Below are positions 5,352 through 29,852 of a DNA stretch of 35,452 bases, in pieces. A program made the translations under genes and the position numbers. The stretch lies in the NCBI GenBank assembly GCA_026225295.1, contig JAMFSN010000177.1:1-35452 (forward strand). Direction: 5' to 3'. The stretch comes from Frankia alni (lineage in GTDB: Bacteria > Actinomycetota > Actinomycetes > Frankiales > Frankiaceae). Each line of letters opens with the position of its first letter. Position 1 is the stretch's first letter. The notes under the pieces were generated by a model. The model did no database searches. It was not told where the DNA came from and saw nothing but the letters and a program-made list of their open reading frames with translations.

Positions 5352-6692
5352 GTGACGTTGGGTGATGTGATACCGAGCCTGCGGTCCTCGCTCGTACGGG
5401 GGCTGACTCCGGAAGTCTGGCCCGCCGGGGCGGAATTGTCGGCGGACGGCGAGATGGTCGTGGCCGGGGTACCCATGAGCGGCCTGGCGGCGACGTTCGG
5501 CACTCCGACGTACGTCCTGGACGAAGCCGAGTTCCGCGGACAGTGCCGGCGGTATGCGGCCTCGCTTCCGGACGCGGAGGTGTGCTACGCCGGCAAGGCG
5601 CTGCTGACCCGCGCGGTCGCGCGCTGGGTGGCGGAGGAAGGGCTCTCGCTCGACGTCTGCTCGGCCGGTGAACTGGCGGTAGCCCGCTCGGTCGGGTTCC
5701 CTCCTGAGCGGCTTGTCCTGCACGGCAACGCCAAGACCCCGGAGGACCTGAAGGCGGCGCTGCGCTATCCGGTGAGCCGGATCGTGCTCGACTCGTTCGA
5801 CGAGATTGCCCAGCTCGGCCCGCTGGCCCACGACCAGCAGGTGCTGGTGCGGGTGACCCCGGGCGTGGACGGCGCCACCCACCACGCGATCACCACCGGG
5901 ATCGAGGATCAGAAGTTCGGTTTCTCACTTGCCAACGGCGACGCCCTGGAGGCGGTCCGTCGGGTGCTGGCCGAGCCGGGCCTGCGCCTGGCCGGCCTGC
6001 ACTGCCACCTCGGCTCCCAGATCGCCCGGCTTGCGCCGCTCGAGGAAGCGACCCGCAGGATGATCGGACTGCTCGCCGCCATCCGTGACCGACAGGGCGT
6101 GGTCCCTTCCCAGCTCAACCTGGGCGGCGGCCATGCGGTGCGGTACGTCCCCGGCGACGAGGCGTTCGACCTGGCTGGCTTCGCTCACCGCCTGTCGGGC
6201 ACGATCAATTACGAATGCGGCCGGCACCGTCTGCCTGCCCCTCGCCTGACGCTGGAGCCTGGGCGAGCCTTGGTCGCCCGCGCCGGGATCACGCTCTACC
6301 GGGTCGTCACCGTCAAACACATCCCCGGCGTGCGGACCTTCGTTGCCGTGGACGGCGGGATGAGCGACAACCCGCGGCCCGCGTTGTACGGCGCGCGGTA
6401 CACCGTGGACCTCAGCGGCCGGCTCCGTACCGCCCCGGCCCGGCCGGTGACGGTCGTCGGTCGGCACTGCGAAGCCGGTGACGTCGTCGCCCGCGACGTC
6501 CTGCTTCCCGGCGACGTCCGCGCCGGCGATCTGCTCGCCGTGGCCTGTACCGGCGCTTACCACCACAGCCTGGCCTCCTCCTACAACCTGGTCGGACGAC
6601 CTCCAGTGGTCGCCGTGCGCGACGGGAACGCCCGCGTTCTGGTGCGCCGCGAAACCGAAGAAGACCTGCTCGCCCGGGATACCGGCCGGTGA
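5352..6692 (+). CDS. lysA: Diaminopimelate decarboxylase-like PLP enzyme
   Basis: Fold-type III PLP decarboxylase of the DapDC/LysA family, which converts meso-diaminopimelate to lysine in the cytoplasm. It has 446 aa. Visible motifs: PLP lysine in CYAGKALLTRAV, HGNAKT, HCHLGSQI, glycine-rich NLGGGHAVRYVPGDE, EPGRALVARAG, VDGGMSDNPRPALYGARY, the inter-subunit CEAGD, and C-terminal GAYHHSLASSYNLVGRPPVV. The start is GTG 5352, with GGAG 5 nt upstream. The GGGHAVRY variant of the glycine loop suggests a secondary LysA-type paralogue rather than the housekeeping copy, so a related diamino-acid substrate is possible. It lies 52 nt ahead of kdpA on the same strand and could be cotranscribed with it, which is not a known functional pairing. 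Confidence 0.88.
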   Translation: MTLGDVIPSLRSSLVRGLTPEVWPAGAELSADGEMVVAGVPMSGLAATFGTPTYVLDEAEFRGQCRRYAASLPDAEVCYAGKALLTRAVARWVAEEGLSLDVCSAGELAVARSVGFPPERLVLHGNAKTPEDLKAALRYPVSRIVLDSFDEIAQLGPLAHDQQVLVRVTPGVDGATHHAITTGIEDQKFGFSLANGDALEAVRRVLAEPGLRLAGLHCHLGSQIARLAPLEEATRRMIGLLAAIRDRQGVVPSQLNLGGGHAVRYVPGDEAFDLAGFAHRLSGTINYECGRHRLPAPRLTLEPGRALVARAGITLYRVVTVKHIPGVRTFVAVDGGMSDNPRPALYGARYTVDLSGRLRTAPARPVTVVGRHCEAGDVVARDVLLPGDVRAGDLLAVACTGAYHHSLASSYNLVGRPPVVAVRDGNARVLVRRETEEDLLARDTGR

Positions 6693-6744
6693 GGGCCGGC
6701 GGGGCCCGCGGATCGGCCGGCCGCCAGACATCGTGGAGGTTCCG

Positions 6745-8394
6745 GTGACCATCTGGTCTGAGGTCGCGGCCGTGGTGGTGGTGGTCGCCGCGGTGCACGT
6801 CCCGCTCGGCAACTACCTGGCCCGCACCTTCACCGCGAGTCGACATCTGCGGGTCGAGTCGGCCCTCTACCGGCTCGCGAAGGTCGATCCCGAGGCCGAC
6901 CAGCGCTGGTCGACGTACGCGGCCAGCCTGCTGGCCTTCTCCGGCGCCTCGGTGCTGTTCCTGTACGCGCTGCTGCGGCTTCAGGGGCATCTGCCGCTGT
7001 CGCTGGGACGGTCGGGCATGCCGGCGGCGCAGGCGTTCGACACCGCCGTGTCGTTCGTCACCAACACTTCCTGGCAGTCCTACGCCGGTGAAAGTGCCCT
7101 GGGCTATCTCGCGCAGATGCTCGGCATCACCGTCGCGGCGTTCCTGTCGGCCGCGGTCGGGTTGGCTGTCGTACTCACGCTCATCCGGGGTCTGGTCCGA
7201 GTCCGCACCGACCGCGTCGGCAACTTCTGGGTCGACCTGGTACGGGCGACGATCCGAATTCTCCTTCCCCTGTCGGTGCTGTTCGCCGTCCTGATGGTCG
7301 CGGCCGGGGCGATCCAGAATCTGCATGGGTTCCAGACGGTCACCACGGTCACGGGCGGCCGCCAGCACCTGCCCGGCGGTCCGGTCGCCTCCTTTGAACC
7401 GATCAAGCTGATGAGCGGCGACGGCGGCGGTTTCTACAACGCCAACTCCGCCCATCCGTTCGAGAACCCCTCCGCCCTCACCAACCTGCTCGAGATCATC
7501 CTGATGCTGTTGATCCCGACGGCGATCCCGCGCATGTACGGCCGGATGGTCCACGACACCCGGCAGGGCTGGGCCCTCCTGGCGGTCATGACCGTCTTGT
7601 TCGCGGCTGCCCTGGCGGTGCTCGTCACCGCCGAGTCGACGCACCACGGCACCGTCCCGACCGCGGTCGGGGCAACGACCGAGGGGAAGGAGACTCGCTT
7701 CGGATCATCGACGTCCGCCTTCTTCGCGACGACCTCGACCGCGACCGCGGACGGCGCGGTCGACGCCAGTCACGACTCCCTCACCTCGGCGGGTGGTGGC
7801 GTGGCACTGGTCAACATGATGCTCGGCGAGGTCAGCCCCGGCGGGGTCGGCTCCGGCCTGTACGGATTGGTGGTCCTGTCGATCCTCGCGGTGTTCCTCG
7901 CCGGTCTGATGATCGGGCGTACTCCGGAGTACCTCCGTAAACGGATCGAGCAACGCCAGATCCGTTACGTCGCCCTGATCACTCTGGTCACGCCGGCCGT
8001 GATCCTGATCGGCGCGGCGATCGCGGTCGGTCTACCCACCCCGCCGCGGTCGTTCCTGAACACGGGCGCGCACGGAGTGTCCGAAGCGCTCTACGCGTTC
8101 ACGTCGGCGGGGAACACCAACGGCAGTGCGTTCGCCGGACTGAACGCGAATACCGACTTCTACAACGTCGGCCTGGCGATCGTTATGATCCTTGGCCGTT
8201 ACCTGCCGATGATTTTGGTCATCGCCCTGGCCGGCTCGCTCGCCGAACAACGCCAGCAGCCCGTGACCAGCGGCACCCTGCCGACCCACACAGCGTCGTT
8301 CGTCGGCCTCGTCGTCGGCGTGGCGGTGATCGTCACCGCGCTGACCTACCTGCCCGCCCTCGCGCTCGGTCCGCTCGCCGAAGGGCTGCGCTGA
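6745..8394 (+). CDS. kdpA: KdpA-like potassium channel subunit, orphan copy with divergent filter loops
   Basis: Integral membrane K+-translocating subunit of the Kdp ATPase family. It is 549 aa, essentially full length (usual about 557), with about ten hydrophobic segments. The four P-loop regions are recognisable but each departs from the usual sequence. Loop 1 is TNTSWQSYAGE (residues 106-116; usual TNTNW). Loop 2 is SGDGGGFYNANSAHPFENP (starting at 224; usual GTNGGG). Loop 3 is TADGAVDASHDS (around 335-345; usual GAVNAMHDS type). Loop 4 is SAGNTNGSAFAGL (starting at 454; usual NNNGSAFAGL). GTG 6745 is chosen because GGAGG lies 5 nt upstream; GTG 6733 is an in-frame alternative. No kdpB or kdpF is adjacent: a decarboxylase gene precedes it and an Rv1733c-like gene follows. 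It may be the only kdpA, displaced from the operon, or a paralogue. Confidence 0.92.
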   Translation: MTIWSEVAAVVVVVAAVHVPLGNYLARTFTASRHLRVESALYRLAKVDPEADQRWSTYAASLLAFSGASVLFLYALLRLQGHLPLSLGRSGMPAAQAFDTAVSFVTNTSWQSYAGESALGYLAQMLGITVAAFLSAAVGLAVVLTLIRGLVRVRTDRVGNFWVDLVRATIRILLPLSVLFAVLMVAAGAIQNLHGFQTVTTVTGGRQHLPGGPVASFEPIKLMSGDGGGFYNANSAHPFENPSALTNLLEIILMLLIPTAIPRMYGRMVHDTRQGWALLAVMTVLFAAALAVLVTAESTHHGTVPTAVGATTEGKETRFGSSTSAFFATTSTATADGAVDASHDSLTSAGGGVALVNMMLGEVSPGGVGSGLYGLVVLSILAVFLAGLMIGRTPEYLRKRIEQRQIRYVALITLVTPAVILIGAAIAVGLPTPPRSFLNTGAHGVSEALYAFTSAGNTNGSAFAGLNANTDFYNVGLAIVMILGRYLPMILVIALAGSLAEQRQQPVTSGTLPTHTASFVGLVVGVAVIVTALTYLPALALGPLAEGLR

Positions 8395-22507: not shown

Positions 22508-24175
22508 TCAGACCTGGGCCGGGAGCACGTGGTCGCCGGCCTTGTCGGTCGAGAGGTCGAGCGAGCAGATGTAGGCATCGTGCGCCTGGCACCTGACCAT
22601 GTCCGGCCGTTCGTACTCCTGCTGGCAGACGTGGCAGGTGAGGGTCTCGCCGGACGGGTTGCCGTACTCGTCGTACATCGGCAGGTCGATGCCGTCGTCC
22701 GTACGGCGCAGGTAGTACCGGCCCTTCGTGGCCACGGCCAGGATCGGGGGCAGGACGAGGGCGAGCACGATCGCCACCAGGGGGGAGTAGGGCTTGAGGC
22801 CGGAGCCGAGGCCGCCGTAGAAGTCGATGATCGAGATGCCGGCGGCCAGCACCAGCGACCCGAACCCGACCGGGTTGACGGCGTAGAGCATGCCGCGGCG
22901 GAACTCGGGCTTCAGCGGCGAGATCTTGAGCAGATACTTGTTGATCGTGATGTCGGAGGCGACGGAGACCACCCAGGCCATGCCGCAGTTGGCGTAGAAG
23001 GCGAGGATCGTGTTCAGGAAGCTGAACATGTCGGCTTCCATCAGGATCAGCGCCACGAGCAGGTTGAAGCCGAGGAAGACCAACCGGCCGGGATAGGTCT
23101 TGGTGATCCGGGTGAACGAGTTGGTCCAGGCCAGCGAGCCGGAGTAGGCATTGGTCACATTGATCTTGATCTGGCTGATCACGACGAGGGCGACGGCGAG
23201 GACCAGCGCGGCCCAGTGCGGCAGGAGGTCCTGGTAGATCTCCAGGAACTGATGCACCGGCTGGTTGGCCACGCCCGCGCCGTTCGCGACGTTGGCGATG
23301 ATGTAGACGGCCAGGAACATGCCGATGATCTGCTTGAGGGCGCCGAAGAACACCCAGCCCGGGCCGGCCAGCACCATCGCGGTCCACCAGCGGCGCGAGT
23401 TCTCCGGCGTGCGGGGCGGCATGAAGCGCAGGTAGTCGATCTGTTCGGCGATCTGGGCGATCAGTGAGAGGCAGACGCCGGCGGCCAGGAAGACCGAGCC
23501 GAGGTCGAAGCCGCCCTTGCCGTCCTGCCCGCCGTAGTTGAGGAACGTGCTCATCGAGTCGGGGTGGCGGATCAGCAGGTAGGCGAACGGCAGCACCATC
23601 AGCACCAGCCACAGCGGGGTCGTCCACAGCTGCAGCGTGGAGAGCAGTTTCATGCCGTAGACCACGAGCGGGAAGATGATGATCGTGGAGGTCGCGTAGC
23701 CGATCCACAGCGGGATGTGCAGGCCCAGCTTCAGGCCCTGGGCCATGATCGAGCCTTCCAGGGCGAAGAAGATGAACGTGAAGGATGCGAAGATCACGTT
23801 CGAGACGACCGAGCCGTAGTAGCCGAAACCGCTACCCCGGGTGATCAGGTCGAGGTCCAGGTTGTAGCGGGCGGCGTAGTAGGCCAACGGGAAGCCGGTC
23901 AGGAAGATCACGACGGCGAAGACGCCGATGCCCCACAGGGCGTTCGTCGTTCCGTAGGAGATGCCGATGTTCGCCCCGATGGCGAAGTCCGCCAGGTAGG
24001 CGATGCCACCGAGGGCCGAGATCGCGACCACACCCGTGCCCCAGCGCCGGTAACTGCGCGGCGCGAACCGGAGCGTGTAGTCCTCCAGAGTCTCCTTGGC
24101 GGACCCGGTCTCCGGTGCGGACCCGGTGCTCAGTTGGTTGGTTGCGGGATCGTGCGGAGGGCTGACGGTGCTCAT
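22508..24175 (-). CDS. NCS1-family nucleobase permease with C-terminal Cys/His cluster
   Basis: Polytopic membrane transporter of 555 aa of the NCS1 (purine/cytosine permease) family, taking up a nucleobase or related compound with Na+ or H+. It has about 12 hydrophobic segments from residue 45 to 475; typical stretches are FALEGSIMAQGL, INVTNAYSGSLAWTNSF and ITINKYLLK. A soluble tail of about 70 residues follows the last helix. It contains CHVC (514-517), then Cys529, His532 and Cys537: a probable small metal-binding knuckle not usual in plain NCS1 transporters. From memory, Cys-rich tails of this kind link permease and kinase parts in fused transporter-kinases; here the hybrid kinase is the neighbouring gene. 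ATG 24175 begins the conserved N-terminus; no strong ribosome binding site. Confidence 0.88.
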   Translation of the reverse strand: MSTVSPPHDPATNQLSTGSAPETGSAKETLEDYTLRFAPRSYRRWGTGVVAISALGGIAYLADFAIGANIGISYGTTNALWGIGVFAVVIFLTGFPLAYYAARYNLDLDLITRGSGFGYYGSVVSNVIFASFTFIFFALEGSIMAQGLKLGLHIPLWIGYATSTIIIFPLVVYGMKLLSTLQLWTTPLWLVLMVLPFAYLLIRHPDSMSTFLNYGGQDGKGGFDLGSVFLAAGVCLSLIAQIAEQIDYLRFMPPRTPENSRRWWTAMVLAGPGWVFFGALKQIIGMFLAVYIIANVANGAGVANQPVHQFLEIYQDLLPHWAALVLAVALVVISQIKINVTNAYSGSLAWTNSFTRITKTYPGRLVFLGFNLLVALILMEADMFSFLNTILAFYANCGMAWVVSVASDITINKYLLKISPLKPEFRRGMLYAVNPVGFGSLVLAAGISIIDFYGGLGSGLKPYSPLVAIVLALVLPPILAVATKGRYYLRRTDDGIDLPMYDEYGNPSGETLTCHVCQQEYERPDMVRCQAHDAYICSLDLSTDKAGDHVLPAQV

Positions 24176-24272
24176 CGCAGGCTGCCTTTCTGGCAGGCGC
24201 GCGTCCGGGAGGACGCCGGACCAACGGTCGACGGGGAGCGGCGCTGATCCCTGCCGATCAGCGAACATCCGG

Positions 24273-24301
24273 CCGCTAAGCAACTGCCAAGCAACCGCCA
24301 A
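24273..24301 (-). promoter_or_regulatory. Candidate SARP operator: three heptamers at 11-bp spacing
   Basis: Read on the minus strand, TTGGCGG, TTGGCAG and TTAGCGG are separated by identical 4-nt spacers TTGC, giving an exact 11-bp period about 97-126 nt upstream of the permease start. Heptamer direct repeats with 4-bp spacers on one helix face are the known SARP recognition geometry, and a SARP gene lies in the same cluster. Binding itself is inferred. Confidence 0.6.
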
Positions 24302-24331
24302 GTGTCCCGGCCACCGCCGGGCGGAGCGGGC

Positions 24332-27300
24332 TCAGCCGAGCGCGCGCAGGGCGACGGCGACGCGTTCGTGTTCGGCGACGATCTCCCGTACCAGGGGGGC
24401 CACCGCCTCCCGCACCAGAGCGCCCACCTCGCCCACCTCGCCCACCTCGCCGGCGGCGCCGGTGCGGGTCTCGACCTGCTGGCACAACCGGGCCAGGTCG
24501 GTGGCCCCGAAGGTGGCGCCGAGGCATTTGAGGGCGTGCGCGGCGCGGTGTACGGAATCGGGGTCGGAGCGGGCCGCGGACAGCGTGTCCACCAGCCCCG
24601 GCGCGTCGGTGAGGAAGTCGGTGACCAGGCCGGACAGGGTGGCCGCGTTCCCACCGAGAAGCTCACGCAGCCGCTCCAGCCCGCCCGGGTCCAGGACGGG
24701 CCGGCCGTGCTCGAGCCTCCGGGCCCGGGCCAGTGCGGCGACGAGGTCGGGGGTCATCAGTGGCTTGGTGAGGTAGTCGTCCATGCCGGCCGCCAGGCAG
24801 TCCTCCCGCGCGCCGGGCTGGGCGTTGGCGGTGAGCGCGATGATCCAGGGCCCGCGGCCGCCGAAGTGGGCCCGGATCCGGCGGGTGGCCTCCAAGCCGT
24901 CGATGCCGGGCATCTGGACGTCCATGAGCACGACGTCGTAGTGCCGGCGTTGCACCGCTCCTATCACCTCGGCGCCGCTGCTCACCAGATCGGCCCGGTG
25001 GCCGGATCCGGTGAGCTGAAGGAGCACCAGTCGCTGGTTCACCGCGTGATCGTCGGCCACCAGGAGCCGCAGGGCCCGGGCCCCGTCCGCGGCCGGATCC
25101 GGGGTGGCGGGGCCGGCCGCGGCCGCGGGTACCGACGTCGGGGCGGCGGGTGGGCCGGCGACCGCCGCGGTCATCGCCCGGAACAGCGGGGCGGGTCGGA
25201 TCGGCCGGGTCACCACTGAGACGCCCCGCGGGGCTTCGGGCCCGGGGAGACGGGCGAAGGAGGTGATCAGCACGATCGGCACCTGCTCGCCGGCCGGGTC
25301 GGCCCGCAGCGCCCGGGCCAACGCCAGGCCGTCCATCCGCGGGGGGCGATGATCGAGAATCACCGTGTCGTACCGGCGTCCGGCGCGCAGCCACCGAAGC
25401 GCGGCCCCGGTCGACGCCGTGCCGGTGATCCGCATCCGCCAGGCCCCGACCAGCCAGTCCCCGACCAGGGCGCGAGTCGGGGCGTGGCTGCCCACCATGA
25501 GCACCTCGCCACCGGACAGGGCGGAGGTGTCATCAGGGACCGGATCCCGCCGCGCCAACGTGGTCGCCGCCGCGGGCACGGCGACGGTCATGGTGGTCCC
25601 GGATCCGGGTCGGGAAGCAGCGGTGATCGTCCCGCCCATGAGGGCCGACAGGCGGCGGCAGATGGCCAGGCCCAGCCCGGTGCCGCCGTAGCGCCGGGCG
25701 GTGGACGGGTCGACCTGGGTGAACGAATCGAAGATCGACTCCAGGTGCTCGGGTGGGATGCCGATGCCGGTGTCGCGCACCGTGAAGCGCCACTCGTGCG
25801 GGCCTTCGGCGCCGCCTGGTGTCGCCCCGCCCGGTGCCGCCCCGACGGTGACGGTCACCTCGCCCCGTTCGGTGAACTTCACCGCGTTGCTCAGCAGGTT
25901 GAGCAGGATCTGCCGGACCCGCGTCGGGTCGCCGACCATCGCCTCCGGGGTGCCGGGTTCGATGGTGCAGGTCAGTTCGAGGTCCTTGGCGCCGGCATCG
26001 GCGGAGACGAGATCGATGGCCGCCTCCACGCATTCGGCGACGTGGAACGGCACCTGTTCCAGGCTGAGGCGGCCGGCCTCGATCTTGGAGAAGTCGAGGA
26101 TGTCGTTGATGAGCAGGAGCAGCGAGTGGGCGCTGTCGTGGACGACTTCGGTGAGGTGTCGCTGGTCGGCGTCGAGACGGCCGTCCAGAAGCAGCCCCGA
26201 CATGCCGATGACCGCGTTCATCGGGGTCCGGATCTCGTGGCTCATGGTGGCCAGGAAGGCGCTCTTGGCGGCGTTGGCGGTCTGGGCGGTGGAGGCGGCG
26301 TCGCGCAGGGCATCGGCGGTGCGGACCCGATCGGCGACCTGGCCGAGCTGGTCCGCCACGTCCGACAGGAGAACCAGCAGAGCGGCGTCCGGGGCGGTGG
26401 GGTCGGCCGTGAGGAACTCCATCACGGCGACCACCTCCGCGGCTCCGGCCCGCCCGGTCCGCACCGGGACGGCGATCCCCGCCCCGGGCCCCCGTACGGT
26501 CCCCGGTTCGGACGACAGTTCGGGCAGCCAGACGGCCTGTCCGGTCGCGAGGACCCGGCCCGGCAGGCTGGACGGGCCCGGCGGGGCGGTGTTCTCGGGG
26601 CGGTCGGCGGACGTCGGCAGGGGCACCAGCCGGTCGCCGTACCGGTGGTAGGCCCGGCCGACCGGCCAGCCGGTGTGGGCGCGGACCAGGTCGACCACGT
26701 CGACGGCGGCCGCGGCCAGGTCGGTGGCCCGATGGGCCGCGTCGGCCACCCGGTGCAGCAACCGGAGTTCGGCGGAGCGGCCCTGGACCCGTTCGGTCAT
26801 CTCGTTGTACCGCTCGGCCAGGGAACGCAGTTCGTCGACTCCGGCGACCCGCGCCCGGACGTCGGCCTCCCCGGCGGCGATCCGGGCGGTCGCGGCGTCG
26901 AGCTCCGCGACCGGGCGGAGCACCGCCCGGCGGGTCACGGCGGCGAACACCGCCATCCCTGCGAGGAGCAGCAGCGCCGCCGCGATGGCGGCCGCGGACC
27001 AGGCTCGGGCCCGGTCCGTCGACCGCCCGGTTTCCCGGGCCGTGCGGGTGTCGACGAGCGTGAGCACCTGCCCGATCGGCTGCATGATCTCGTCCTTGGC
27101 CCGCAGGTAGGACGCGTCGAACAGCATGTTCGTGGCGTGCTGGCGGTTGGCCGCACCCCCGTGGGCGGCCAGCGTGAAGGCCTGCTGCTCGACGGTGGCC
27201 AGGGCGTCCGAGCGCGCCTTGGCCGTGGCCAGCAGGCCCAGCTCCGGGCGGGTGAATCCGGCCTGGGCGGCCAGCGTGGCGAAGGCCACCGGGGGACCGG

Positions 27301-27652
27301 ACGGCGTGGGCCGCCGGCCGGTGTCGGTCACGACGTCCCAGTAGATGTTGTCGTAGTTCTCCGGTCTCGGCGCCGTGCCGTCCCGGATCTCCAGGATCTC
27401 CTGGAACCAGGCGCGGTAGCGCGTCTCACCGGTGACCACGTACGTCCGCGCCATCCGGGTCAGGTCGTCAGAGGTCTGCCGTAGTTCGTAGGCCAGGCGC
27501 AGCGACTGCGACCGCCGGGCCTCGGCCGCGGCCGCCTGCCGGGTGCTGCTCTCGGCCTTCAGGCTGACCAGCAACAACGCGGCCAGCAGGACGACGCCGA
27601 TGCCGACGCCGCTGCGGACCAGACCGCGCAGCGACATCGGCCCACGGTTCAC
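24332..27652 (-). CDS. Hybrid sensor histidine kinase with two receivers and Hpt
   Basis: Membrane phosphorelay kinase of 1106 aa. Order: TM1 (about 12-30), extracytoplasmic helical region (about 31-215), TM2 (about 216-238), HAMP (about 240-292), GAF-like (about 300-440), HisKA with [19 protein letters not shown] (His472), HATPase with N-box [11 protein letters not shown] and [12 protein letters not shown]1 (about 715-830), REC2 (about 860-985) and Hpt (about 1000-1100). REC2 is canonical (VADDHAVN, Asp911, TKPL). REC1 keeps Asp767 (ILDHRPP) but has VGSH where the acidic pair should be and Arg in place of the switch Lys, so it is probably degenerate. Hpt has His1039 in [16 protein letters not shown] 27652 overlaps the upstream SARP-receiver gene by 4 nt. 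The stop is 156 nt before the permease start. Confidence 0.95.
24421..24447. repeat. Three 9-bp tandem repeats in the kinase Hpt region
   Basis: CGCCCACCT three times in succession, encoding EVG-EVG-EVG on the minus strand. It lies in the Hpt domain after the second helix, so copy changes keep the frame but alter loop length. Confidence 0.85.
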
Positions 27653-28998
27653 GTGGGTTCGGGCCCGGTGCCGATCCGAGCCTGGCCGACCTCGGCGCGA
27701 AGCGCGGCGATCTCGGTCCGCAGAGCGGTCTCCCGCTCAGCGGCCGACCGCCGGGCCTGGAGGGAGGCGCACAGCCGGGCCCGGAGCATGGTCGAGCTGT
27801 ACGGCTTCGGCAGGTAGTCGATCGCGCCCAGCTCGATGCAGCGCACCACGCTCTCCAGTTCCGGCACCGCCGAGACCATGATCACCGGGATGGCGGCCAG
27901 GGTCGGATCGGCCTTGATCTCGGTCAGCGTCGCGTACCCGTCCAGCACCGGCATGAGCAGATCCAGCAGGACGAGGTCGAAGCCGCGCGGACCGTCAGCG
28001 GCCGCCCGCAGCATCTCGAGAGCCCGATGGCCGTTCTGGGCCGTCCCCACCTCGTGACCGAGCCCGGCCACCGCGGCCGCCAGGAGCTTGCGATTGATGG
28101 CGGTGTCATCGACCACCAGGACCCGTCCGGGCCGATCCGCGGCCGCTGCCTCGCGGTTCGGCGTCGCCACCTCGGCCCGGGGCGCGGGCACGGGCGGCGG
28201 GGCGGGCGGCGACACAGGCGGCGGCCAGGCCAGGCCCGGGTCCTGCCGCAGGACCGCCTGTTCCAGTTCGCGCAGCCGGACGCCCGGCTCGAGCCCCAGC
28301 TCGTCGTGCAGCAGCCGGCGGGTCTCGCGATAGGTGGCCAGCGCTTCCACCTGCCGCCCGCACCGGTACAGCCCGAGCATCAGCTGGGCCCGGAGCCGCT
28401 CTCGCAGCGGGTGCCGGCGCACCCACTGCTCCAGCTCGGCAACCAGTGCGGCGTGCCGGCCCAGGGCGAGTTCGGCGTCGATCCGGTCCTCGGCCGCGCC
28501 GAGGTGCAGTTCCGTCAGCCGGGCCGCCGCGGCCCGGGTGAACGGTGTGACCGGGACGTCGCCCAGGGCCGGGCCGCGAGCCATCTCCTCGGCGCGCAGC
28601 AACAGGTGCGCCGCCCGCCCGGGGTCCCCGGCGTCGAGCGCCGCCCGGCCGCGCACGACCAGGTTGGCGAAAGCGTGCGCGTCCACGGCGTCGGGCTCGA
28701 TATCGAGCAGGTAGCCGGGCGACGCCGTGACCAGGACGGTCGCCGTTGCACCACGGGAACGCGTCGGTTCGAGGGCCCGGCGCAGCTGGGAGACGAAGAC
28801 CTGCACCGTGGCCGCCGCCCGGGTCGGGGGCTGCTCCGGCCACAGGTCGTCGATGAGCTGATCGACCGAAACCACCCGACGGACCCGGAGCAGGAGCGAG
28901 GCGAGGACGGCGCGCTGCTTGGGCCCGCCGACGTCCACCGGCTGCCCGTCCCGGTACACCTCGACGCGGCCGAGCAGCCGGAACTCGAGGCCTGCCAT
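27649..28998 (-). CDS. SARP-type activator fused to a receiver domain
   Basis: Cytoplasmic regulator of 449 aa. N-terminal OmpR-type winged helix (about 1-95: [28 protein letters not shown], seen in parts, and [13 protein letters not shown]), then the bacterial transcriptional activation domain (about 100-250, ending with [19 protein letters not shown]), together a SARP/AfsR N-terminal module. After a Pro-rich linker comes a complete receiver domain (about 299-420) with VVDDTAIN, Asp346 in [12 protein letters not shown] and LPKPYSS, and a short coiled-coil end ([19 protein letters not shown]). Classical SARPs lack a receiver, so phospho-control is likely here. The ATG at 28998 has the usual SARP start. 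The stop overlaps the hybrid kinase start by 4 nt: the two are one operon and probably partners. Confidence 0.93.
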
Positions 28999-29060: not shown

Positions 29061-29852
29061 GTGGGCCGGCGCCGCGCCCGCGAGCCGCGCCACGTAGAAG
29101 GCCGTCGCCGACGCCGGGGTGCGACGCGCTCGGGGGCGCCGGATGCCGCTGCCGTCCCGGCGCTGATGGAGGAACTCACCGACTGGCTCAACACCGACAG
29201 CAGCACCCATCGGCTGGTGCGGGCGGCGATGGCGCACCTTCATCTGGTGTCCATCCACCCCTGGACCGACGGCAACGGCCGGCTGTCCCGTTCGCTGCAG
29301 ACGCTCATGATCGCCCGCGAAGGCGTCCTCGCCCCGGAGTTCTCGTCCATCGAGGCGTGGCTCGGACGCCCCGGCAATACCTGGGAGTACTACCGCGAAC
29401 TGGCCGACCGAGGAGCGACCTACGATCCCGGCCAGGACGTCTCGACCTGGATCAGCTTCAACCTGACCGCCTACCACCAGCAGGCCCAGACCGTCGCGGG
29501 CCGGATCGACCGCTCCGGGCGGGTCTGGGGTGCCCTCTCGGAGTTCGCCGAGACGGTCAAGCTGGACGATCGAGTGGTCAGCGCCCTGCACGACGTGGCG
29601 GTGGCGGGCCGCGTCCGTCGCGCCCGCTACGAGCACGGGGAGAGCCTGAGCCGCCAGCAGGCCCAACGCGACCTCCGCGACCTGACCACGGCCCAGATTC
29701 TGGAACCGGTCGGCCGAACCCGGGCCCGCTATTACACGGCCGGCCCCCGCTTCCCCCAGCCGGTTCTGGAGATCGCGCGCACGCCGATGACCGTGCGGAA
29801 TCCCTACAGCGATCCGGGGACCATGGCCTCCGGCGGCGCGAGAAAACCATGA
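29061..29852 (+). pseudogene. Fic-domain AMPylator, N-terminally truncated
   Basis: Remnant or short form of a Fic protein, an enzyme family that transfers AMP to protein hydroxyl groups. From GTG 29061 there are 263 residues; ATG 29166 (residue 36) is another possible start. The Fic core is intact: HPWTDGNGRLSR (His66 of the longest form), preceded by AHLHLVSI. A winged-helix part follows (LSRQQAQRDLRDLTTAQILEPVGRTRARYY, in pieces). The first 100-120 residues of a typical Fic protein, including the place of the inhibitory helix, are absent. Residues 7-30 look like a corrupted version of the segment normally before PDAAAVPALMEEL. Truncation ends near the SARP gene promoter. It is called a pseudogene, but a functional short form is not excluded. 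Confidence 0.65.

Follow-up and report, generated by a model that had tools for sequence, protein, structure and literature searches.

A conserved SARP activator, hybrid histidine kinase and NCS1-fold permease in Frankia alni suggest a dedicated phosphorelay for a transporter gene

Introduction

Bacteria can place a transporter gene under a sensory system to which a transporter or transporter-like protein itself belongs. In UhpABC and in DctA/DcuB–DcuS, a separately encoded protein of this kind is genetically linked with a kinase and a regulator controlling the transporter gene. UhpC is of the MFS type, and the regulator of UhpABC is of the LuxR type.

Transporters joined to a histidine kinase in one polypeptide have been reported as sensors for CbrA (PMC7096432, PMC13022988) and for an Amt-kinase fusion (PMC5764959). 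Among transcriptional activators, the SARPs usually target antibiotic clusters (PMC10972967), at promoters in which repeats lie 11 or 22 bp apart and 8 bp separate the 3' repeat from the −10 (PMC10936776). Response regulators of the BTAD type are rare in biosynthetic clusters, at 0.6% in one survey (PMC10663231). The openly licensed literature yielded no described system for receiver-SARPs, NCS1-kinase fusions or urea/formamidase kinases.

Here we analyse a three-gene locus of Frankia alni within a stretch of 35,452 nucleotides (contig JAMFSN010000177.1), hereafter the window. We consider it likely, from conservation and sequence architecture, that the locus encodes a dedicated phosphorelay switching on a transporter gene, and that the permease imports urea or a short amide.

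Results

Gene layout at the locus

Coordinates and Pfam matches agree with the initial annotation on three minus-strand genes, their positions and a 4-nt overlap, in which the kinase gene starts inside the SARP gene and shares 27649–27652 with its stop (Table 1). The permease start was the one position to be revised. It had been placed at 24301, but the TTG there lies inside the promoter repeats; the true start is the ATG at 24175, which is common to relatives and preceded by AGAAAGG. No Rfam match for a structured RNA was obtained in the region at E≤5.

Two other genes in the window were recorded. A Fic/DOC-domain gene (29061–29852, plus strand) is divergent from the SARP gene; its profile match begins at position 21, so its 5' end may be truncated. 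KdpA, the A subunit of the potassium ATPase, is encoded at 6478–8394 (plus strand); no neighbouring ORF in the window has the size of KdpB.

Table 1. Features of the SARP–kinase–permease locus (window positions).
Feature	Positions	Strand	Basis
SARP-type activator with C-terminal receiver domain, 449 aa	27649..28998	minus	PF00486, PF03704, PF00072
Membrane hybrid histidine kinase, 1106 aa	24332..27652	minus	Pfam, residues, TM segments
Kinase extracellular sensor domain, residues ~31-218	26999..27562	minus	tblastn, AlphaFold2, Foldseek
Putative SARP box and −10-like hexamer, permease promoter region	24260..24302	minus	Conserved at all triple loci
NCS1-fold permease, 555 aa, 12-TM-type	22508..24175	minus	AlphaFold2 model, fold comparison
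Permease C-terminal Cys box, residues 514-540, CxxC...C...C	22556..22636	minus	Conservation in 111 homologues

The residues of a phosphorelay are conserved

The kinase has two TM segments and, by Pfam, the order TM–ectodomain–TM–HAMP–GAF (weak)–HisKA–HATPase–REC1 (degenerate)–REC2–Hpt. All elements of a hybrid phosphorelay kinase are present, namely HisKA, HATPase, a receiver and an Hpt with the conserved H-D-H series; none of the nine kinases read lacks HisKA His472, the REC2 aspartate or Hpt His1039. The canonical REC2 and the Hpt claimed at first sight are therefore borne out in every relative read. Pseudonocardia has an intact REC1, the window kinase and most Frankiaceae a degenerate one, and two relatives none; because of its decay and loss, this domain is not the conserved relay step. 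The kinase falls far under the NCBIfam equivalog cut-offs (for BarA, 373 of 890 bits).

A separate output protein with a terminal receiver is supplied by the SARP. Its N-terminal OmpR-type DNA-binding domain (44 bits) is followed by a BTAD (148 bits), both above the Pfam cut-offs, and the acidic pair (DD), the phospho-acceptor Asp346 (27961–27963) and the lysine of its receiver are kept in 11 of 11 SARP receivers read. The conservation of Asp346 supports the earlier proposal that this receiver is the likely end of the relay, and the phosphate would then pass from His472 to the REC2 aspartate, to Hpt His1039 and to SARP Asp346.

The ectodomain of the kinase resembles those of chemoreceptors. 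In tblastn searches it matched MCPs, the best of them 37–44% identical; its AlphaFold2 model is a long helical bundle (pLDDT 82), and Foldseek returned weak matches to NarQ and to four-helix sensor domains.

The permease has an NCS1-type fold and a conserved Cys box

An AlphaFold2 model of the permease built from 38 homologues (pLDDT 81) has the NCS1-type LeuT fold, with Mhp1 (Z 30.8) and CodB (Z 30.3) as best matches and 25.5 for the best non-NCS1 entry. SLC5 carriers have a LeuT-type fold too; in this comparison NCS1 chains clearly outrank SLC5-type ones, among them NIS, CHT1 and DUR3. The relationship was seen only by fold comparison: neither phmmer nor a 38-sequence profile linked the permease to solved NCS1 carriers in the PDB, no Pfam model matched even at E≤10 (the NCS1 profile PF02133 included), and no NCBIfam model matched at E≤0.001.

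The Cys-rich tail noted earlier is real and is conserved across 111 homologues, with C514 present in 111 of 111, C517 in 103, C529 in 84 and C537 in 103. It is equally conserved in permeases that have no linked kinase.

A putative SARP box precedes the permease gene

The 156-nt region between kinase and permease genes contains the repeats CTTGGCGG/CTTGGCAG/CTTAGCGG at 11-bp steps. They form a SARP-like box, CTTGGCGGTTG CTTGGCAGTTG CTTAGCGGCCG, with an 11-bp period, followed 8 bp past the last heptamer by the −10-like TTCGCT (24265–24260). The published spacing of SARP promoters is thus found at this site and in relatives, the −10 being predicted from sequence. No other place on the minus strand of the window reaches the repeat score of this site, and only 2 of 2000 dinucleotide shuffles of the intergenic region equalled it. 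The SARP-like repeats claimed for this promoter region are present.

Repeats of the form CTTGGC/CTTAGC with 11-bp spacing were found in every SARP–kinase–permease set, in three copies in Frankiaceae and two in Pseudonocardia. A third lineage has three (GTTTAGTGGACGTTTGGCAGTCACTTAGCG), and its remaining intergenic sequence differs. The hexamer 8 bp after the last heptamer reads TTSSCT, or TCTACT in the third lineage. One locus (L058) has a weaker box (TTTAGG, CGTT). The permease ATG of Pseudonocardia oroxyli comes 6 nt after the −10-like hexamer, which fits a leaderless transcript.

When one mismatch was allowed, the element pattern occurred exactly once in each of eight whole Frankiaceae genomes (5.8–11.2 Mb), always upstream of the permease, and it was not found in permease loci without the SARP–kinase pair. 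As the search pattern was derived from these same loci, this uniqueness shows only the absence of other strong sites; independent support for the element comes from its occurrence in the other two lineages. The permease promoter is a likely SARP target.

Past the putative −10, a short hairpin-like element lies in the permease leader (24234–24251, minus strand). It reads GGGG-TCAGCGCCG-CCCC in relatives and GGGA...TCCC in the window, a paired change, and is missing in P. oroxyli, where the ATG directly follows the −10.

The three genes are conserved together in three lineages

Among 80 permease loci taken from genome contigs, the SARP and kinase genes stand directly upstream of the permease at two Frankiaceae loci that are complete and in Pseudonocardia, where four species show this arrangement. 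Another two Frankiaceae contigs begin inside the kinase gene. This order is kept in Frankiaceae and Pseudonocardia and rearranged in the third actinomycete lineage (genome G115, locus L137), where SARP and kinase are divergent from the permease.

Over 346 genomes of the class, the permease was detected at E<1e-100 in 32 and the kinase ectodomain in 10, and nine genomes have both; the hypergeometric value of 1.5e-9 takes no account of relatedness. The contig of the tenth (13964 bases) ends inside the kinase gene. Of the 25 Frankiaceae searched, six have the SARP with receiver, and all six have the permease; the remaining 19 gave no such SARP. Many bacteria hold the permease without the SARP–kinase pair. 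With the triple conserved in three lineages and a near-exact co-occurrence, the initial reading of the three genes as one module stands, and the refuting outcome that it had named, a triple not conserved in relatives, did not occur.

Two apparent fusions were discarded. A SARP–kinase fusion in Pseudonocardia, joined by the ORF caller, is an artefact, as tblastn places the two in different frames. A 1353-aa open frame in a Frankiaceae genome (G007) appeared to join permease and kinase; since the two matches lie in different frames, it is merely a long open frame in G+C-rich DNA.

In the permease tree, built by a quick method and with several long branches, triple-bearing members fall in three places, each beside permeases without the pair: those of Frankiaceae beside Actinoplanes-type proteins, those of Pseudonocardia inside their genus, and that of locus L091 deeper. 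The pair may be either old and often lost, or moved together with its target. Permeases 76–78% identical to that of the window also occur in Nitrospira metagenome genomes (L050, L054, L070 and L075), nested in the Mycobacterium clade; transfer is likely, or else a binning error.

Gene context points to urea or short amides

The recurrent neighbours of the permease homologues are urease, formamidase, urtABCDE and FmdB-like zinc ribbons. Urease genes (ureABC) lie near the permease in 19 of the 80 loci and formamidase in 4 of the 80. An Acinetobacter homologue adjoins a urease operon, those of Tsukamurella and G122 adjoin formamidase, and that of G172 has urt genes and urease nearby, some of the urt identities having been assigned by eye. 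A table of the nitrogen-starvation transcriptome of Mycobacterium smegmatis lists the formamidase msmeg_3403 together with its neighbour msmeg_3402, a 'cytosine permease' and possible member of this family (PMC4222082).

In the third lineage the SARP–kinase pair is followed at once by ureA, ureB and ureC, which links the pair to urea metabolism in addition to the permease. The Frankiaceae module is not next to urease, which is encoded elsewhere in the genome. Urease presence was tried as a correlate of the module and proved uninformative, since urease is near-universal in Frankiaceae and does not track the module.

The urease, formamidase and urtABCDE genes beside its relatives make a nucleobase less likely as substrate than a urea-type compound, and urea or a short amide is the most likely cargo. 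The term 'nucleobase-type' in the initial annotation is right for the fold only (Mhp1, CodB); the permease matches no Pfam family. The nucleobase substrate it implied is probably wrong, as the context favours urea or short amides.

Further loci of the wider family were recorded. At one locus (L015, 2575–3648, minus strand) and 13 similar Kribbella-type loci, a Peripla_BP_6 gene lies upstream of, and opposite to, a permease–urease operon; it has no obvious transporter adjacent and its product could be an AmiC-type amide/urea sensor. A second permease subfamily (~50% identical) occurs in actinomycetes, with a formamidase-linked member at L139. The second-subfamily permease of one Frankiaceae genome (L009) groups with proteobacterial proteins that are fused to a kinase.

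Homologous permeases are fused to histidine kinases in Proteobacteria

In the fused homologues, permease and Cys box are followed by two additional hydrophobic helices and then by HisKA–HATPase–REC; the alignment places the Cys box between permease and kinase. A tblastn search of plasmids matched 528 records. Homologues of the fusion are common among Klebsiella plasmids, with 342 records. Five fused proteobacterial proteins were examined over their whole length, four of them with confirmation by Pfam and one as translated DNA. They are 1126–1194 aa long, and their N-terminal part is ~40–46% identical over 94–95% of the permease, Cys box included. Their kinase halves share with the window kinase only general histidine kinase similarity (36–40%), and their permeases form a clade of the tree separate from that of the window.

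In four of the five, the fusion gene shares its 3' end with an overlapping gene for a REC-LuxR regulator. Four of the five also lie opposite urt genes, three of these four with formamidase. One example, on Klebsiella plasmid NZ_MH745929.1 (L112, 11944–15324), is divergent from urtABCDE and a formamidase gene. No role for the fused Klebsiella permease–kinase was found in the openly licensed literature.

Discussion

Taken together, the conserved triple, the conserved relay residues and the box found once per genome make kinase to SARP to permease promoter the best-supported wiring. The membrane kinase would use its own helical ectodomain to sense a signal from outside, possibly with help from the permease, and autophosphorylate at His472. 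Conserved residues and architecture suggest that the phosphate would move over the REC2 aspartate and Hpt His1039 to Asp346 of the SARP, and the geometry and conservation of the box suggest that the phosphorylated SARP would bind the 11-bp direct repeats that lie right before the permease gene and may recruit RNA polymerase to its promoter. To judge from the gene context of its homologues, the NCS1-fold permease would import urea or a short amide and so supply nitrogen via urease.

The usual association of SARPs with antibiotic clusters (PMC10972967) would suit a chance neighbourhood of the three genes and a SARP with targets elsewhere, but conservation across three lineages, co-occurrence and the single genomic box at the permease make this highly improbable. 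A reading that leaves the regulation unchanged and gives the permease a nucleobase, a hydantoin or a ureide such as allantoin as cargo would agree with a fold nearest to Mhp1 (hydantoin) and CodB (cytosine) and with one homologue annotated as an allantoin permease. Beyond the permease of the third lineage there are also xanthine-dehydrogenase-type genes, so that this lineage might break down purines to urea. Set against this is the urea/short-amide theme shared by the recurrent urease, formamidase, urtABCDE and FmdB-like neighbours, and we regard the alternative cargo as rather unlikely.

A more serious alternative makes the permease itself the substrate sensor, a split transceptor contacting the kinase through the Cys box as coupler, with the SARP feeding back on permease expression. 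The idea that a transporter is physically part of the sensor has indirect support from the kinase-fused homologous permeases of Proteobacteria, an NCS1-like analogue of CbrA; in the window the genes are separate. The fused proteins are a natural precedent for permease-to-kinase coupling, four of the five have an overlapping gene for a LuxR-type response regulator, and the CbrA and Amt-kinase fusions are reported sensors (PMC7096432, PMC13022988, PMC5764959). With proteobacterial relatives joined to a histidine kinase along with their Cys tail, it is plausible that the permease reports its substrate. The fusions are nevertheless no proof for the window, because the Frankia kinase carries its own conserved chemoreceptor-type ectodomain and the fused permeases belong to a different clade; the merely general similarity of the kinase halves and the equal conservation of the Cys box in permeases without any linked kinase also speak against it. 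On balance we hold direct sensing by the permease to be possible but doubtful. With similar reserve, we tentatively propose that these proteins may constitute an undescribed family of urea/amide transceptors of NCS1 fold, in which the Cys box would couple the transport state to a kinase, fused in Proteobacteria and split, with a receiver-SARP as output, in Frankiaceae, Pseudonocardia and relatives.

If the phosphorelay operates as proposed, a SARP would be the last member of a classical phosphorelay in a setting other than antibiotic control. The few transporter–sensor systems known so far would gain a class of NCS1 fold with a link to nitrogen, and the module would be a naturally split counterpart of a transporter–kinase fusion, in which coupling could be tested by omitting one part.

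Compared with known systems, the window SARP shares with AfsR and similar SARPs the OmpR-type HTH and BTAD, and its promoter shares with AfsR-type targets the 11-bp direct repeats, the last 8 bp from the −10. Where AfsR has NOD/TPR, the window SARP carries a receiver domain at its C-terminus, and it is predicted to act on a transporter gene and not on an antibiotic cluster. The kinase has the HisKA–HATPase–REC–Hpt phosphorelay architecture of BarA/TorS-type hybrid kinases, but has two REC domains, of which REC1 has degenerated or been lost. As in the SLC5/STAC transceptor kinases (CbrA, CrbS and RpuS), a transporter and a histidine kinase may act as one sensing unit, and the fused homologues keep the order transporter, connector, histidine kinase; their transporter, however, is NCS1-like, and their connector consists of the Cys box and two TM helices and not of a STAC bundle. 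In contrast to the CbrA type, transporter and kinase are separate genes in the window and form one polypeptide only in the proteobacterial homologues. Finally, the Frankia module differs from the UhpABC and DcuS modules in its predicted four-step phosphorelay, which would end on a SARP.
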